Positions 5,811-16,633 of a DNA stretch of 16,715 nt are shown in pieces. The position numbers and the translations under genes are program-made. The stretch is from Blautia sp. (GTDB lineage Bacteria > Bacillota > Clostridia > Lachnospirales > Lachnospiraceae). Position 1 is the stretch's first letter. Every line of letters starts with the position of its first letter. A model generated the notes under the pieces. It saw only the letters and a list, made by a program, of their open reading frames with translations, did not search any database and was not told where the DNA came from. The DNA lies in assembly GCA_017515945.1 (NCBI GenBank), contig JAFWDX010000488.1, positions 1 through 16,715 of the forward strand, read 5' to 3'.

Positions 5811-5874
5811 GGGGTCGGCCCTGGCAGTTAAAAGGGGTCTGGCCCTCCGGCAGTTAAATGGGGTCTGGCCCTCC
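5811..5874. repeat. Tandem repeats with GGGGTCTGGCCCTCC core
   Basis: Two adjacent 26-bp units (5823-5848 and 5849-5874) read GGCAGTTAAA[A/T]GGGGTCTGGCCCTCC and differ at one base. A degenerate earlier core, GGGGTCGGCCCT, begins at 5811. The last unit is also the outer part of the left arm of the palindrome that follows. This is non-coding sequence directly after the stop codon at 5804. Confidence 0.85.
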
Positions 5875-5972
5875 AAACAAATCGTGAACAGCGTTCATAA
5901 AATGTTCATGAGTATCTCATGAACATTTTATGAACGCTGTTCACGGTTTGTTTGGAGGGCCAGACCCCATTT
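5856..5972. repeat. Near-perfect 117-bp palindrome, possible operon terminator
   Basis: Arms of 57 bases (5856-5912 and 5916-5972) pair along their whole length around the three-base loop TAT, with a single mismatch that would be a G-U pair in RNA (5882 against 5946). The outer part carries the GGGGTCTGGCCCTCC core; the inner part carries GTGAACAGCGTTCAT and AATGTTCATGAG. The right arm runs into TTTTTTATAAA, so RNA from the importer operon would form a very long hairpin with a U tract and probably terminate. The rpoB promoter starts 16 bases further on. Confidence 0.9.
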
Positions 5973-6016: not shown

Positions 6017-7860
6017 GAAAAATGCTATATTATGGAAAGGTACGCCTTTTGATTCATTATCATTATAATCCCTTTGACTGTGAATCGTCAAGAGTGTATC
6101 CAATTGTAATATAAATTTTAGAATACAGGGGTGAGACGTCAATGGAAAAAAACAGAATTCGTTCTGTACAGGCCGGTAAGAGCATGCGGATGAGCTACCA
6201 GAGACAGAAGGAAGTTCTTCAGATGCCGAACCTGATCGAGGTCCAGAAGGACTCCTATCAGTGGTTCCTGGATGAAGGGCTCCGGGAGGTCTTCCGGGAT
6301 ATTTCTCCGATCGCGGATTACGGCGGGAAGCTGAGCCTTGAGTTCATCGACTTTACTTTTGACGAAAAGGACGCAAAGTATTCCATCGCTCAGTGCAAAG
6401 AGCGGGATGTGACGTACGCCGCTCCTTTGAAGGTCAAGGTACGCCTTATTAACAAAGAAACAGAGGAGATCAACGAGCATGAGATTTTCATGGGCGATCT
6501 GCCTCTGATGACGGCCACCGGTACGTTTGTGATCAATGGCGCGGAGCGTGTCATTGTCAGCCAGCTGGTGAGATCCCCCGGTATTTACTACGCGATCACC
6601 CACGATAAGCTGGGCAAGACGCTCTATGCCTGCACGGTCATCCCCAACAGAGGCGCATGGCTGGAGTACGAGACGGATTCCAATGACGTCTTTTATGTAC
6701 GTGTGGACCGCACGAGAAAGGTGCCGATCACGGTGCTGATCCGTGCCCTGGGCGTTGGAACCGACGCGGAGATCACGGAGCTCTTTGGCGAGGAGCCCAA
6801 GATCCTGGCCAGCTTCACCAAGGATACCTCCACCAATTATCAGGAGGGTCTGCTGGAGCTGTACAAAAAGATCCGCCCCGGCGAGCCGCTGGCCGTAGAG
6901 AGCGCGGAGACGCTGATCAATGCGATGTTCTTTGATCCCCGCCGCTATGACCTGGCCAAGGTGGGCCGCTATAAATTTAATAAGAAACTTCATTTTAATA
7001 AGAGAATTGTCGGACACCGTCTGGCGGAGGATGTCGTGGATCCTTCCACAGGTGAGGTGCTGGCCGAGGCCGGCGCCACGATCCACCGCAAGGAGGCCGA
7101 CATGATCCAGAACGCCGCCGTTCCCTTTGTCTGGATGGAAGGAGAGGAAGGACGTAAGATCAAAGTCCTCTCCAGCCTCATGGTGGATATCCGCACATGG
7201 ATTCCTGAGGTCCAGGACATGAACGACGAGCAGCTCAAGGATGAGCTGGGTGTGACGGAGCTGGTTTACTATCCGGTGCTGGAGCATATCCTGGAGGAAT
7301 ATCCGGATTATGAAAGCCGCAAAGCGGCGATCCGCAGGGATATCCGGGATCTGATCCCCAAGCATATCACCCGTGAGGATATTTTTGCATCGATCAATTA
7401 CAACATGCATCTGGAATACGGTCTGGGCAATGACGACGATATCGATCATCTGGGCAATCGTCGTATCCGCGCCGTGGGCGAGCTACTGCAGAACCAGTAC
7501 CGGATCGGTCTGTCCAGACTGGAGAGAGTGGTCCGTGAGCGCATGACCACACAGGATACGGAGAGCATTTCCCCGCAGTCCCTGATCAATATCAAACCGG
7601 TCACCGCGGCGGTCAAGGAGTTCTTCGGATCTTCCCAGCTGTCCCAGTTCATGGATCAGAACAACCCGCTGGGCGAGCTGACCCACAAGAGACGTCTCTC
7701 CGCCCTGGGCCCTGGCGGTCTGTCGAGAGACCGTGCCGGATTTGAGGTGCGAGACGTACATTATTCCCATTACGGCAGGATGTGCCCCATCGAGACACCT
7801 GAAGGTCCCAACATCGGCCTGATCAACTCCCTTGCATCCTATGCAAGGATCAATCAGTAC

Positions 7861-7865
7861 GGTTT

Positions 7866-7869
<4 letters not shown>
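7861..7869 (+). other. Apparent one-base deletion (frameshift) in rpoB
   Basis: The sequence reads TAC GGT TTG TGG AGG where the family needs [10 protein letters not shown]. Adding one T to the TTT at 7863-7865 gives GGT TTT GTG GAG GCC CCC TAC CGC AAG and joins the two frames perfectly, with 1300 residues in total. No canonical slippery heptamer (X XXY YYZ) is present in the zero frame. A lost T in a short homopolymer is the simplest reading. Confidence 0.92.
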
Positions 7870-10043
<2,174 letters not shown>

Positions 10044-10045
10044 AA

Positions 10046-10211
10046 GTACCTGTTCGGTCAGCACCTCGCATTTACTGCGACACCGCAGGCGTGCCTTGGC
10101 AGGTGCGTGAGAAAGAAGTTGAACAGCCAGGGCCGGGCGCACTTTCATTGCGACGATAGGAGCCTGCGTCCGCCCTCGGAACTGTGAAGGAGCTTGTGAC
10201 TGAACAGTTAC
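10046..10211 (-). mobile_element. MITE copy A, between rpoB and rpoC
   Basis: A 166-bp non-coding element in the opposite orientation to copies B and C. Ends GTACCTGTTCGGTCA and TGACTGAACAGTTAC are inverted repeats with two mismatches in 15. It is flanked by GAATAAAA (10038-10045) and GAATAATA (10212-10219), a 7/8 direct repeat. Internal parts match copy B throughout: the GCACCTCGCATTTACTGCGA block and a GGGCCGGGCGCA/TGCGTCCGCCC stem. The duplicated target includes the last Glu codon and stop of rpoB, so insertion hit exactly the end of that gene without changing its product. The element has no open reading frame and must be moved in trans. It would be transcribed inside the rpoB-rpoC mRNA. 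Confidence 0.85.
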
Positions 10212-10223
10212 GAATAATATGGG

Positions 10224-10257
10224 GTAACTGTGAAGAAACTTGTGACTGAACAGTTAC
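10224..10257. repeat. 34-bp solo end of the MITE family
   Basis: This stretch repeats the terminal 34 bases of copy A (10178-10211), from AACTGTGAAG to CTGAACAGTTAC, with a few changes. It starts GTAACTGT and ends ACAGTTAC, so it forms its own 8-bp-stem hairpin. No 8-bp direct repeat flanks it. It is either a tandem duplication of the end of copy A or the remnant of a fourth copy. Confidence 0.75.
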
Positions 10258-10282
10258 CGATCACGATGAAAGGGGAATCATA

Positions 10283-13200
10283 ATGGCAGAAGTAACCAGC
10301 ACCCCGGAGGCGAAATCAAATCAGCCGATGACCTTTGATGCCATAAAGATCGGACTGGCATCCCCTGAAAAGATCAGGGAATGGTCGCGTGGTGAGGTAT
10401 TAAAGCCTGAAACAATCAATTACCGCACGCTCAAACCGGAGAAGGAAGGGCTTTTCTGTGAAAAGATCTTCGGGCCGAGCAAGGACTGGGAGTGTCACTG
10501 CGGCAAATACAAAAAGATTCGCTACAAAGGCGTGGTCTGTGACCGCTGCGGCGTTGAGGTCACAAAGGCCTCCGTCCGGCGTGAGCGCATGGGCCATATC
10601 GAGCTGGCCGCGCCGGTTTCACATATATGGTACTTTAAGGGAATTCCTTCCAGGATGGGTCTGATCCTGGATCTGTCTCCCAGGACGCTGGAGAGAGTGC
10701 TCTATTTTGCGAGCTACATCGTACTGGATCCGGGCGAGACGGGACTGATGCGCAAGCAGATCCTCTCAGAGCGGGAGTATCAGGAGGCCGTGGAGACATG
10801 GGGTCATACCTTCCGCGTGGGCATGGGCGCAGAGGCGATCATGGAGCTGCTGCAGGCCATCGACCTGGAGAAGGATTCCGCTGAGCTCAAGGAGGAGCTG
10901 GAGACGGCATCCGGACAGAAACGGGCCAGGATCATCAAAAGGCTCGAGGTCGTGGAGTCCTTCCGCGAGTCCGGCAACCGTCCGGAGTGGATGGTGATGA
11001 CGGTGATCCCCGTGATCCCGCCGGATCTGCGCCCGATGGTCCAGCTGGACGGCGGCCGCTTTGCCACCTCCGACCTGAATGATCTGTACCGCAGGATCAT
11101 CAACCGCAATAACCGTCTGAAAAGACTGCTGGAGCTGGGGGCTCCGGACATCATCGTCCGCAATGAAAAGCGCATGCTCCAGGAGGCTGTGGACGCGCTG
11201 ATCGACAACGGCCGCAGAGGCCGTCCGGTCACAGGCCCCGGCAACCGTGCGCTGAAATCTCTTTCCGACATGCTCAAGGGTAAATCCGGACGTTTCCGTC
11301 AGAACCTGCTGGGCAAGCGTGTCGACTATTCCGGCCGTTCCGTTATTGTTGTAGGACCGGAGCTCAAGATTTATCAGTGCGGTCTGCCCAAGGAGATGGC
11401 CATCGAGCTGTTCAAGCCCTTCGTCCTGAAGGAGCTGGTAGCGGGCGGGATCTCCCACAACATCAAGAGCGCCAAAAAGATGGTCGAAAAGCAGGAGACC
11501 GAGGTCTGGGATGTCCTCGAGGAGGTCATCAAGGAGCATCCGGTCATGCTGAACCGTGCGCCTACGCTGCATCGTCTGGGTATCCAGGCCTTTGAGCCGA
11601 TCCTGGTCGAGGGCAAGGCCATCAAGCTCCATCCGCTGGTGTGTACGGCTTTCAACGCGGACTTCGACGGCGACCAGATGGCCGTCCATCTGCCGCTTTC
11701 CCAGGAGGCACAGGCCGAGTGCCGCTTCCTGCTCCTGTCGCCCAACAACCTGCTGAAGCCGTCTGACGGCGGTCCTGTGGCCGTACCTTCCCAGGATATG
11801 GTACTTGGTATCTATTACCTGACCCAGGAGCGCCCGGGCAGCATCGGTGAGGGCAAGTACTTCCGCAGTGTGAACGAGGCGATCCTTGCATATGAGAACG
11901 GTGTCATCAAGCTGCAGACCAAGATCAATGTCCGCAGGTCAGGAGTGGACAAGGACGGCAACCCGATCACGGGGAACGTTTCTTCGACACTGGGCCGTTT
12001 CCTGTTTAATGAGATCCTTCCGCAGGACCTTGGCTTTGTGGACCGGAGCATTCCGGGTAACGAGCTGGTTCCGGAGGTGGATTTCCTTGTAAAGAAAAAA
12101 GAGCTCAAAAAGATCCTTGAGAAGGTCATTAACACCCACGGGGCGACCACCACGGCTGAGGTGCTGGACTCCATCAAGGCTATGGGATACAAATATTCCA
12201 CCCGTGCGGCCATGACGGTTTCCATTTCCGACATGACCGTGCCGCCGCAGAAGCCGCAGATGATCCAGGAAGCACAGGACCGTGTGGACCGGATCACCCG
12301 CAACTACCGCCGTGGTATGATCACCGAGGAGGAGCGCTACAAAGAGGTCGTCAGCACCTGGAAAAAGACCGACGATGACCTGACCAAGGCTCTGCTGGGC
12401 GGACTGGATAAATACAACAACATCTTCATGATGGCTGATTCCGGCGCGCGTGGTTCTGATAAGCAGATCAAGCAGCTGGCCGGTATGCGTGGCCTGATGG
12501 CGGATACCACAGGTCATACGATCGAGCTGCCGATCAAGTCCAATTTCCGTGAGGGTCTGGACGTTCTGGAGTATTTCATGTCGGCGCACGGCGCCCGCAA
12601 GGGCCTGTCCGACACGGCTCTGCGTACCGCGGACTCCGGATACCTGACCAGACGTCTGGTCGACGTTTCACAGGAGCAGATCGTCCGTGAGACAGACTGC
12701 TGTGAGACCCGTCCTGAGATCGCGGGCATGTATGTGACCGCATTTACGGACAACAAGGGCGACGACAGGGACAAGATCGATTCCGAGTCCTCGATCGAGA
12801 GCCTGCAGGAGCGTATCACGGGAAGATTCTCCTGTGAGACCATCAAGGACAAGAACGGCGAAGTCATCGTCAAGAAGAATCATATGATCACGCCCAGGCG
12901 CGCGGCCCGGATCATGAGCGAGGGTGTCAGCAATGAGACCGGCGGCCGGATCGAGAGAGTCAAGATCCGTACGATCCTGACCTGCCGCTGCAAGGTGGGT
13001 GTGTGCGCGAAGTGCTACGGCGCCAACATGGCTACCGGCGAACCGGTGCAGGTGGGTGAATCCATCGGTATCATCGCCGCTCAGTCCATCGGTGAGCCCG
13101 GTACGCAGCTGACCATGAGAACCTTCCACACGGGCGGTGTGGCCGGCGGTGATATCACCCAGGGTCTTCCCCGTGTCGAGGAGCTTTTTGAAGCCCGTAA

Positions 13201-14152
13201 GCCCAAGGGTCTCGCGATCATCACTGAGATCCCCGGCATGGCGGTTCTCAACGATACCAAGAAAAAGAGAGAGATCATCGTCACCAATCCGGAGGACGGT
13301 TCTTCCAAGACCTATCTGATCCCCTACGGCTCCCATCCGACGATCAAGGAGGAAGAGGGCCAGAGAATGGTGGAGGCCGGCGATCCTCTGACCGAAGGTA
13401 GTCTGAATCCGCATGACATCCTCCGGATCAAGGGTATCCGTGCCGTGCAGGATTACATGCTCAAGGAAGTGCAGCGCGTGTACCGCCTCCAGGGCGTGGA
13501 GATCAACGACAAGCATATCGAGGTCATCGTGCGCCAGATGCTGAAGAAGATCCACATCGAGGAGCAGGGCGACTCCGAGTTCCTGCCTGGCTCGATGGTC
13601 AATGTCCTTGAGTTCGAGGATGTGAATGAGGAGCTGGTCGCGCAGGGCAAAGAGCCCGCCGTCGGCACCCAGGTCATGCTCGGTATCACAAAGGCCTCTC
13701 TGGCTACGGATTCCTTCCTGTCGGCCGCTTCCTTCCAGGAGACCACAAAGGTCCTGACCGAAGCTGCCATCAAGGGCAAGGTCGACCATCTGATCGGTCT
13801 GAAGGAGAACGTGCTGATCGGTAAACTGATCCCGGCCGGTACAGGACTCAAGACCTATCAGGAAGTAGAACTCGACACAGTTATGCCGACTCCGGCACCT
13901 GCCGCTGCGCCTGCGCCAAAGGCAGACAAAAAAGCAGTGGAAGAGGATGAAGAGACGTCGGATTATGACGAGGAGGGTCAGATCGACGACGAGGATGATA
14001 TCGACTGGCCTGAGGAGGAGCATGCTTCAGCCGAAGCCGGTGAACCTGATATGACGACCGCAGCTGAAGAGCCGGATGAAATCGCTGAAGCGCAGACCGC
14101 TGAGGAAGCGGATGAGCTTTTCGGTGAAGCGGATCCGGATGAAGATCAGTAA
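10283..14152 (+). CDS. rpoC: RNA polymerase beta' subunit
   Basis: Catalytic subunit of RNA polymerase, 1289 residues and intact. Seen in order: zinc site 1 (C71, C73, C86, C89), catalytic [10 protein letters not shown] with Asp 460, 462 and 464 binding Mg, bridge-helix region [25 protein letters not shown], zinc site 2 (Cys 806 or 807 plus C901, C908, C911, spacing as in E. coli), trigger-loop region [40 protein letters not shown], and a conserved C-terminal part to about 1205 ([11 protein letters not shown]). The last 80 or so residues are an unusual tail: an Ala/Pro linker ([12 protein letters not shown]), then a strongly acidic segment to DPDEDQ. The ATG at 10283 has AAAGGGGA at 10269-10276. 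The 239-bp gap from rpoB is filled by mobile-element sequence; I found no convincing promoter in it, so rpoC probably depends on read-through from rpoB. Confidence 0.98.
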
Positions 14153-14213
14153 TTGTCTGTGAACGGGCTTGCGGCCGGATGGCTGCAAGCCGGAAAAAAT
14201 CACAAAAAGATAT

Positions 14214-14264
14214 AAAAAACAGGACCGCCTCTCTGTAAAAGAGGCGGTCCTGTTTTTTATTTTT
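14214..14264. terminator. Bidirectional intrinsic terminator between rpoC and the convergent hydrolase gene
   Basis: A 13-bp GC-rich stem (14220-14232 with 14240-14252, arm CAGGACCGCCTCT) is preceded by six A and followed by six T, then ATTTTT. Read on either strand, the hairpin is followed by a T tract, so it can end rpoC transcription on + and hydrolase transcription on -. On the - strand, copy B of the mobile element lies between the hydrolase stop codon and this terminator. Confidence 0.92.
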
Positions 14265-14430
14265 GTAACTGTTCAGTCACAAGCTTTTTCACAGTTGCGA
14301 GGCCAGGCGCAGGCTCCTTTCGTCGAAATGAAAGTGTGCCTGGCCTTGACTGTTGGATTATTATTTCACGCACCTGCCAAGGCACGCTTGCGGTGTCGCA
14401 GTAAATGCGAGGTGCTGACTGAACAGTTAC
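14265..14430 (+). mobile_element. MITE copy B, downstream of rpoC
   Basis: A 166-bp non-coding element with perfect 15-bp terminal inverted repeats (GTAACTGTTCAGTCA, TGACTGAACAGTTAC). It is flanked by TTATTTTT (14257-14264) and TTAATATT (14431-14438), 6/8 identical and probably a decayed target duplication. Internally it has an AGGCCAGGCGCA / TGTGCCTGGCCT stem and a nested GCACCTGCC...CGCAGTAAATGCG...GGTGC block. It entered directly behind the T tract of the rpoC terminator and ends seven bases before the hydrolase stop codon, so on the - strand it forms the 3' UTR of that gene. Confidence 0.88.
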
Positions 14431-14437
14431 TTAATAT

Positions 14438-16438
14438 TTAGTGGTATGAATCGTAAAGTACGCGGCTGGCGTTCGCGATCGCATTCTGCGCTTCGCCGAC
14501 TGCGCCGAGATTTTCCGACATGAAGACAACGACCAGATCGGATCCGTTGTCGGTGTCATAGATGATGCCGGCATCGTTTTCCACATCGCCGAGCTCGCCG
14601 GTCTTGTTGGCGACGAGGACGCCGTCAGGCAGAGCGGCGGGAATCTTGTTCCGGCGGGTCTGAGCCTTGAGAAGGTTGAACATATCTCCGGCATGGGACA
14701 GGGTGGAGGTCACCTGCGGAGCGGTCCAGACACTGCCTGCCTCTTCGTTCGCCGCACCTGCTTCGGCCTGCGCGGAGCGGTATACCTCGCGGAGGAAGCG
14801 GCCACAGTCGACTACGGAGGTATAGTTGTCATCGTATTCGTTGCTGGCAAGAAGGAGCCTGCCCATATGCGTGCTGGTATAGCCGTGGGCTGCGCAGAAA
14901 TCATTGACAACATTCATGCCGGTCTGGCTGTCGCCTCCGCCGAGCATGCCTACCAGGGCATTGGCTGCATCATTGTCACTGACGGTGATCATCGGATACA
15001 GATTATCGTCAAGGGCAGCCTGGCCGTAAGTGGCGGAGAGGGAATCAAAATTCTCATAGACCGCTGCCATGATATAAAGCTTGATCAGGCTGGCTGCCTG
15101 CATGCGTTCGCTGGCAGTAGGCGGTGCAAAGCCGGAAAGGTCATTCTTCAGGTCGCATACGTACATGGCCCAGTGACCGTTGCCCTGGGGGAGTACGCTG
15201 TACGCTGCTGAAACCGCGGATTTGAACAGATCCTGAGCGGCTTCCAGATCCATTTCGGAACCGGCCCCGGCTCCGCCGCCGGAAGAGGGAGAAAGGGCGC
15301 CCTCCTCACGGTTTTCCTCTGGCGCGGGCTCAGCCTGCTCATCTGCGGGTGCGGGCTCGGCCTGCTCCTCTGCGGGCGCGGGTTCGGCCTGCTCCTCTGC
15401 GGGGGCTGCTTCGGCGGCTTCGCCTTCGGAGAATTCGTCTTCTTCGTCAGCTGCTTCGGGGGTGTCTTCCTCATTTGCGGCAGCTGCATCATCTGCATCC
15501 TCGGCCGGGATGGAAGAAGTATCGTCCTCTGCTGTCTCAGCGGTTGTATCCGCAGGAGCGGCAGCCGCATTGTCGGAGTCGGTACCGTCGGAGAAATCGA
15601 ATGATTCACCGGCGTCGTCGGAGTCCTGGGCATTCTTTTCTGCAGCTTCGTCTGTGGAGTTATCTTCTGCGGCATCAGCAGCTTCAGAATCATCTTCTGC
15701 GGTATCAGCAGCTGCTTCTGCGGGAGCTTCGGTGGTCTCTTCTGCGGGAGCTTCAGTGGTCTCCTGAGCGGGGGCTTCGGTGGTCTCTGCCGCAGGGGCT
15801 TCAGTGGTCTCTTCTGCGGGAGCCTCAGTGGTCTCCTGGGCGGGGGCTTCGGTGGTCTCCTCTACAGGAGCTTCCGTGGCCTCCTCTGCGGGAGCTTCGG
15901 CTTCATCTGCCTTAGAAAAATATCCGTCAATGCCGTCTGCGATCACATAGGCTGCCCAGGCTTGATCCGTATCCTTGGCCAGATCCAGCGGAGCCGCCTG
16001 GTTTGTAAACTTGTCAAGCTGGAGCATGACAGTCGGTGCGGCGGACTTTGAGGTCTCTGCCGTGAGGATCTCGGTACCTGACGCCTGCGAAATAGATTCA
16101 TAAGCATCGGCAATACTCTCGGCCAGAGGAAGGGAATCTATATCGTCCGCTCCTTTGACATCCATCGCGATGATCGGAGCTGCGCCGCCCGTGCGCAGCT
16201 GGATCACAGCCTTTGCGTTGGCACCTTCTCCCTTGAGGTCCTCTGTGAGGACAACCTCGTATCCGCGGTTTGTAAGGATATCGGAGAGGATCTGTGCGAT
16301 GGCTTCGTTTGACGCCTCGGCGCCCGCGTCAACAGCAACACTGTGAGTATCTGCCGCGGCTGTGGCAGCGCCGGAGAGGATCATGGACATTGCGGCGCCT
16401 GCGGCGATCCAGGTTTTGATCATTTTTTTCCTTCTCAT
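14438..16438 (-). CDS. Secreted fusion: degenerate Amidase_3-like domain, repeat stalk, class A beta-lactamase-like serine hydrolase
   Basis: A 666-residue exported protein, probably acting in or on the cell wall. Signal peptide 1-29 (MRRKKMIKTW, hydrophobic core, ATAAA cut). Residues 32-174 look like N-acetylmuramoyl-L-alanine amidase (Amidase_3) without its zinc ligands: VAVDAGAEA replaces the usual DAGHGG, AVIQLRTG replaces the IHAN strand, and PTVMLQLDKFTN replaces the V-E-x-G-F-x-N motif, while the ending AYVIADGIDGYF is kept. A stalk follows: TEAPAEET-type octads (188-241), a Ser/Asp/Glu/Ala segment (242-340) and three APAEEQAEP units (345-371). Residues about 397-666 form the hydrolase domain: S450-L-I-K453, SDN 487-489, KTG 612-614. 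I see no ExxLN omega-loop motif, so true beta-lactamase activity is doubtful. The ATG at 16436-16438 has AGGAG seven bases upstream. Confidence 0.85.
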   Translation of the reverse strand: MRRKKMIKTWIAAGAAMSMILSGAATAAADTHSVAVDAGAEASNEAIAQILSDILTNRGYEVVLTEDLKGEGANAKAVIQLRTGGAAPIIAMDVKGADDIDSLPLAESIADAYESISQASGTEILTAETSKSAAPTVMLQLDKFTNQAAPLDLAKDTDQAWAAYVIADGIDGYFSKADEAEAPAEEATEAPVEETTEAPAQETTEAPAEETTEAPAAETTEAPAQETTEAPAEETTEAPAEAAADTAEDDSEAADAAEDNSTDEAAEKNAQDSDDAGESFDFSDGTDSDNAAAAPADTTAETAEDDTSSIPAEDADDAAAANEEDTPEAADEEDEFSEGEAAEAAPAEEQAEPAPAEEQAEPAPADEQAEPAPEENREEGALSPSSGGGAGAGSEMDLEAAQDLFKSAVSAAYSVLPQGNGHWAMYVCDLKNDLSGFAPPTASERMQAASLIKLYIMAAVYENFDSLSATYGQAALDDNLYPMITVSDNDAANALVGMLGGGDSQTGMNVVNDFCAAHGYTSTHMGRLLLASNEYDDNYTSVVDCGRFLREVYRSAQAEAGAANEEAGSVWTAPQVTSTLSHAGDMFNLLKAQTRRNKIPAALPDGVLVANKTGELGDVENDAGIIYDTDNGSDLVVVFMSENLGAVGEAQNAIANASRVLYDSYH
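15326..15406 (-). repeat. 27-bp tandem repeats coding APAEEQAEP
   Basis: Three consecutive nine-residue units (APAEEQAEP, APAEEQAEP, APADEQAEP; protein residues 345-371) lie just before the Gly/Ser linker that leads to the serine hydrolase domain. The repeat is visible in both DNA and protein. It is likely part of an extended acidic spacer and prone to length change. Confidence 0.8.
15716..15877 (-). repeat. 24-bp tandem repeats coding TEAPAEET octads
   Basis: Six full octapeptides of the form TEAP[A/V][E/Q/A]ET and a partial seventh (residues 188-241) follow the amidase-like domain. The codons are similar from unit to unit, so the array is a DNA-level tandem repeat. In Gram-positive surface proteins, such Pro/Thr/Glu/Ala stalks span the wall. 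Copy number may vary between strains. Confidence 0.85.
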
Positions 16439-16478
16439 ATTAATACTCCTGTTATTATTTCTTCGGGTTACATCTTTC

Positions 16479-16623
16479 GTAACTATTCAGTCACAAGCTC
16501 CTTCACAGTTACGAGGCCAGGCGCAGGCTCCTTTCGTCGCATTGGAAGTGCGCCTGGCCCTGGCTGTTCGTCTTTTGCTCCACGCACCTCGCAGTAAATG
16601 CGAGGTGCTGACTGAACAGTTAC
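16479..16623 (+). mobile_element. MITE copy C, in the 5' leader of the hydrolase gene
   Basis: A 145-bp copy in the same orientation as B. Ends GTAACTATTCAGTCA and TGACTGAACAGTTAC match at 14 of 15 positions. A perfect 8-bp direct repeat, CATCTTTC, flanks it (16471-16478 and 16624-16631), the clearest target duplication of the three. Relative to B it lacks 21 bases inside the GCACCT block, leaving the perfect hairpin GCACCTCGCA-GTAAA-TGCGAGGTGC (16584-16608); the GGCCAGGCGCA / TGCGCCTGGCC stem is perfect. It separates the promoter (16634-16662) from the ribosome binding site (16446-16450), so it makes up most of the 5' UTR. Confidence 0.92.
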
Positions 16624-16633
16624 CATCTTTCAA

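Follow-up and report, generated by a model that had tools for sequence, protein, structure and literature searches.

Short, gene-less repeats of the Correia, ERIC, Chunjie and QMITE families have inverted ends and structured interiors, lie mostly between genes, occur with deletion variants and reach high copy numbers. More than 120 Correia copies and up to 711 ERIC copies are given in the available sections of a review (PMC10969869). A lineage-specific expansion of an IS-derived MITE is described for Cardinium, in which MITECca01 is present in 169 copies and makes up 3.5% of the chromosome (available sections of PMC9769881). For ISDge4, a transposase-encoding element assigned to the ISBst12 group, the ends GTGACTACTCAGCA/GTAACTGCTCAGCA are described together with a repeat of 8 bp (PMC12898284, sections available).

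The MITE family described here shares the above traits with the Correia, ERIC, Chunjie and QMITE repeats but differs from them in its ends, and their drivers are other or unknown; 34-bp forms at the frequency observed here are not mentioned for any of these four in the available sections of PMC10969869. Like MITECca01, it represents a lineage-specific expansion of an IS-derived MITE, whereas MITECca01 stems from IS982, with intact copies present, and the driver here is absent from the assembly (comparison with the available sections of PMC9769881). With the ISBst12 group it has in common ends of the GTAACTGCTCAGCA type and an 8-bp duplication (PMC12898284, sections available). In contrast, ISBst12 elements encode a transposase (about 450-570 aa) while the MITE encodes none, has an asymmetric, hairpin-rich interior, and its exact ends diverge from theirs after about 11 bases. 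No statement tying a MITE to IS66 was found in the available sections of PMC3189936, PMC9769881 and PMC3281130, and a literature search joining ISBst12 and MITE returned nothing.

Three MITE copies and a 34-bp unit around rpoC

The window, that is, the whole 16,715-nucleotide stretch of DNA analysed, is contig C354 of a draft genome (2,625,352 bp; 518 contigs; 79% complete). The original prediction placed three IS66-like MITE copies (166, 166 and 145 bp) in it, and both their coordinates and their flanking 8-bp repeats were reproduced exactly. Its tally was incomplete, as a fourth unit of 34 bp (10224-10257), separated from the right edge of copy A by 12 bp, had been overlooked. A full copy consists of one P end and one Q end, which are different but both carry GTAACTGTTCAGTCA; the features are as follows.

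10038..10045, no strand: left 8-bp target copy of A, GAATAAAA, containing the rpoB stop codon and the codon before it
10046..10211, minus strand: MITE copy A, 166-bp form, P end at right, between rpoB and rpoC
10212..10219, no strand: right 8-bp target copy of A, GAATAATA, 7/8 identical to the left copy
10224..10257, minus strand: 34-bp P-end unit without the MITE body; flanks AATATGGG/CGATCACG, no duplication seen
14257..14264, no strand: left 8-bp target copy of B, TTATTTTT, located within the T tract of a terminator-like hairpin (14213-14259) 3' of rpoC
14265..14430, plus strand: MITE copy B, 166-bp form, P end at left
14431..14438, no strand: right 8-bp target copy of B, TTAATATT, 6/8 identical to the left copy
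16471..16478, no strand: left 8-bp target copy of C, CATCTTTC
16479..16623, plus strand: MITE copy C, 145-bp form without the 21-bp module, P end at left, upstream of the Beta-lactamase2-type gene 14438-16438 (minus strand)
16624..16631, no strand: right 8-bp target copy of C, CATCTTTC, 8/8 identical to the left copy

The 15-bp terminal inverted repeats claimed for the copies agree at 13/15 (A), 15/15 (B) and 14/15 (C) positions. Oriented alike, A and B are 87% identical, and C is 77-78% identical to either, partly because a 21-bp segment is missing from it. As for the internal stems that had been read in all three, B and C fold beyond shuffled sequence (z on the two strands, -6.5/-5.6 and -6.9/-7.1, respectively), but the signal is weak for A (-3.5/-0.5). 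Reading frames cross the copies, and none was judged gene-like on inspection. Rfam matched nothing within the window. The clear terminator in a promoter/terminator scan was the hairpin 14213-14259; a promoter-like site upstream of copy C was rejected as evidence, the scan having given 2 sites against 2.8 expected.

The window holds further features. A near-perfect 117-nt palindrome with 57-bp arms (5856-5972; fold z about -20) lies between a DUF6672 gene and rpoB, and a half copy of it is found at 58-97. Its motif ATGGGGTC(A/T)GGCCCTCC was counted 20 times in the 501-kb sample described below and thus defines a repeat family additional to the MITE. The rpoB gene is read as two overlapping frames (6142-7941 and 7866-10043), a frameshift which is most likely a sequence error, since the gene is essential and the genome is a draft. 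In the gene 14438-16438, 24-bp tandem repeats (15667-15922) encode a Thr/Glu/Ala/Pro-rich stretch ahead of the Beta-lactamase2-type domain.

A high-copy family with 8-bp target duplications

The 16-base P end has 638 matches in the genome (at most 2 mismatches) versus 1 for the reversed control, indicating that the repeats are not due to chance. The exact 15-base end occurs 363 times, and the 34-bp P-end unit 327 times genome-wide (at most 3 mismatches), or once per 8 kb. At this rate 2.1 units are expected per 16.7 kb and 4 are present (Poisson P(>=4) = 0.16), so that the density around rpoC, which had been called high, is ordinary for a genome carrying 327 P-end units per 2,625,352 bp. Because some copies sit at contig ends, the MITE load has probably contributed to the fragmentation of the assembly.

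Target duplications were examined in 88 stretches (501,117 bp), in which 265 ends gave 81 pairs; three edge copies were removed, leaving 78. This sample is non-random, with about 28 stretches chosen for full copies and 20 contigs taken from the end-match list or for their length, while a subset of 37 contigs picked by number (168,346 bp) held 49 ends. The results showed that flank agreement at 8 bp was 0.763 per base versus 0.296 for shuffled partners, whereas at the nine other lengths (3-7 and 9-12) the same 78 copies gave 0.25-0.31 versus 0.24-0.27 in shuffles. The 8-bp flanks were perfect in 27 of the 78 copies, agreed at 6/8 or better in 57 and at 4/8 or lower in 18. The 8-bp repeats predicted from three copies are thus present around copies across the genome. 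The perfect duplication of copy C, taken earlier as a sign of recent movement, is compatible with it but not special, as 27/78 copies have one too. With a short gene-less element bearing inverted ends, a duplication of fixed length and many copies, the three copies belong to a real MITE family, present at high copy number in a Lachnospiraceae species related to Blautia.

Insertion sites and relatives

Placement is mostly intergenic: among sample insertions with flanks of at least 6/8, 25/79 lie inside called reading frames (plain longest-frame calls), versus 86% of random points. At the site of copy A, the one site compared, the gap between rpoB and rpoC is 239 bp here versus 12-18 bp in 25 of 29 relatives; these 29 are the loci read among the 54 further genomes in which rpoB was matched. 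The other four have longer gaps (69-243 bp) occupied by other sequence, and no MITE end lies between rpoB and rpoC in any of the 29, as the empty-site comparison put forward in the original prediction would have it. Since the left target copy of A retains the stop codon of rpoB, the duplication spares the essential operon. A different insert of about 100 bp, with an apparent ATGAATAAC repeat on either side, is found at the rpoB stop codon in one relative (locus L207 of genome G027).

The exact 15-base end occurs in 8 of 98 genomes including this one, with 363 matches in the latter, 7 in G039, 5 in G032, 2 in G003 and a single one each in G027, G029, G036 and G076. Among 392 genomes of the order, it occurs in six, namely this genome and five others with one match each, a few matches being expected by chance alone. 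Among the genomes searched, the expansion is therefore seen in this species only. A 149-bp copy in G039 is flanked by a perfect duplication, GGATGAGG, and the flanks of a 135-bp copy in G032 agree at 7/8; further copies in these two genomes are at 3/8 and 5/8, and that of G003 is at 5/8.

Anatomy of the element

The P end (..CACAAGCTCCTTCACAGTTAC) includes an inverted copy of its terminal 8 bases, and the Q end reads ..GCACCTCGCA... The copies counted fall into size classes of 145 bp (14), 166 bp (31) and 187 bp (11), which track two related 21-bp modules that are 18/21 identical as inverted copies and lie in the two inner hairpins. Both modules score in 9/11 copies of the 187-bp class and neither in 13/14 of the 145-bp class. 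In the 166-bp class (n=31), the Q module scores in 21 copies, the P module in 4 and neither in 6 by threshold. The module-free form may be older than the others, because the copy of G003 is a 145-bp form (131/145 positions as in copy C).

An ISBst12-type IS66 element as the putative driver

The transposase profile of IS66, PF03050, matches in 29 of 60 genus genomes. One branch of these elements has a single gene, with a weak PF03050 score and DUF6444, and ends such as GTAACTATTCAGAAC, GTAACAGTTCAGATA, GTTACTGTTCACACC, GTTACTTTTCACGGG and GTTACTGTTCAAGGG. Eight elements of this kind in six genus genomes have GT(A/T)AC..TTCA ends and 8/8 duplications, although they share only 9-12 of 15 end positions with the MITE; in one of them (G011) the transposase frame is broken. 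We take these to be ISBst12-type elements by their likeness to ISDge4. Given these eight elements with like ends and perfect 8-bp duplications, the ISBst12 group is the likely driver, and as a class an ISBst12-type IS66 is well supported by comparison of ends and duplications.

A profile of six single-gene transposases (A1) matched in 20 of 64 genus genomes, with no match in this genome (G000) or in the MITE-holding G003, G027, G032 and G039. The full element sharing the exact 15-base end, which the original prediction would have had us look for, was sought and not found in the assembly (79% complete) or the 64 genus genomes. Likewise, no autonomous element with the MITE's ends was detected in 47 viral contigs with the 15-base end, where pairing the ends (4 mismatches allowed) gave 21 candidate pairs with best flanks of 5/8 and no element. 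A Q-end 24-mer had 0 matches in viral contigs and a Q-end 25-mer 0 in genome contigs, and the MITE had no match in phage and plasmid records. We infer that an ISBst12-branch IS66 transposase, from an element that is unassembled or has since been lost, would act on the MITE ends in trans. An IS66-type enzyme acting in trans, as first proposed, is thus still the best reading in view of the ends and the 8-bp duplication; the family stands but is narrowed to the single-gene ISBst12 branch rather than the resident three-gene type, and it is the driver itself that we infer.

Body-less 34-bp units

Some P-end units lack the MITE body. When GAGGCC, with which this body begins, is appended to the P unit, the number of matches is 181, so that at most 146 of the 327 units (45%) are body-less genome-wide, an upper figure since this pattern is the stricter one; in the sample, the fraction is 47/130 (36%). 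In the sample, 17 of the 47 body-less units have a duplication of at least 7/8, 7 of them perfect, where about 0.16 are expected (shuffled flank pairs reach at least 7/8 in 0.33%), and 25 are at 5/8 or lower. Six of the 47 overlap a paired element; excluding them, 16/41 reach 7/8. A second set of 7 body-less units from 14 further loci gave 4 at 7/8 or better, 3 of them perfect. On contig C215, a 34-bp unit is lined up with a 145-bp copy, and the target is present three times, as CGTCATTT, CGTCATTC and CGTCATTC.

The P end carries ACAGTTAC at positions 27-34, and the identical 8 bases terminate the element. Slippage between these inner and outer repeats would remove the MITE body in place and, for most 34-bp units, would have left the P end inside the original target duplication. 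We give such in-place deletion, rather than movement of the units themselves, about three chances in four, because body-less units are more diverged (2.43 versus 0.99 mismatches per 34 positions) and other truncated forms bearing duplications exist (e.g. 22, 55 and 100 bp), the 22-bp form being compatible with a deletion between TCACA repeats.

Alternative explanations

Two observations run counter to deletion and bear on the idea that the 34-bp units are mobile themselves, with the outer GTAACTGT and inner ACAGTTAC of the P end acting as an end pair, in which case one family would make two kinds of insertion, of 34 bp and of about 166 bp. Identical consensus units with perfect duplications (C17; C52, C73 and C80) indicate that body-less units are not merely old. 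A G at position 18 is found in 10/42 body-less units versus 3/81 full P ends (Fisher p 0.001, the sequences not being independent), and could mark a separate lineage of 34-bp units. The frequent 7-8/8 duplications in both sets speak for such mobility, as do same-genus body-less units of 29 bp in G032 (7/8), 34 bp in G039 (6/8) and 34 bp in G027 (6/8), the first retaining the inner inverted copy despite a different spacer. On the contrary, the inner end in this genome matches the outer at the first 8 bases only, and 34 bp leave scarcely any room for two enzyme-bound ends. Nor did a large family with the G emerge: the pattern without mismatch was found in 4 places among the matches listed, one of them (C314) a full copy, the lineage search itself (209 hits) being too permissive in mismatches. 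Overall, we regard self-mobility of the units as unlikely, and the specific arrangement in which the P end would be a complete 34-bp mobile unit nested in the larger MITE, one enzyme moving either, as quite unlikely.

It is also conceivable that selection maintains the repeats for their RNA or DNA structure, for example as terminators or RNase sites, and that they no longer move. The copies fold well, copy B occupies a terminator's T tract, copy C precedes a gene, and in the 145-bp class 8 pairs are changed on both sides versus 1.3 in shuffles. However, covariation in the 187-bp class is 2 versus 0.86 and is reached by 45/200 shuffles, the 166-bp class goes beyond shuffles only in cells and not in pairs (67/200), and the 27/78 perfect duplications point to recent movement. 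Structure and mobility are compatible with each other, and selection in place of mobility appears very unlikely. Even less probable is a driver from the resident three-gene IS66 (contig C266) or from another family duplicating 8 bp. The resident element is the sole PF03050 match in the assembly, has related transposases in G039, itself a MITE holder, and shares its first four bases, GTAA, with the MITE. It was rejected as the driver, since its end is GTAAGCGTC and not the MITE's GTAACTGTTCAGTCA; its right end is GTAAGCGTCAAATAG, the exact point at which the alignment with the G039 relative breaks off. Between its TnpB-like frame and its transposase, this element also encodes a 135-aa protein (locus L043, 364-771) with no Pfam match. 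The explanation that we prefer, a high-copy MITE family with an ISBst12-type driver in trans and 34-bp units arising mostly by deletion, has as a whole a probability of roughly 0.7.

Significance

Both the ends and the duplication connect this MITE family with ISBst12, a branch of IS66 that has received little study. What is new here is that body-less 34-bp units make up 36-45% of the P-end units and are often flanked by duplications. If these units did move on their own, they would be among the smallest bacterial insertions with a target duplication known, and more than one third of this genome's insertions would be of the 34-bp kind. The units raise the question of whether a bacterial MITE decays in one step to its end, or whether an end with a built-in inverted repeat moves alone.
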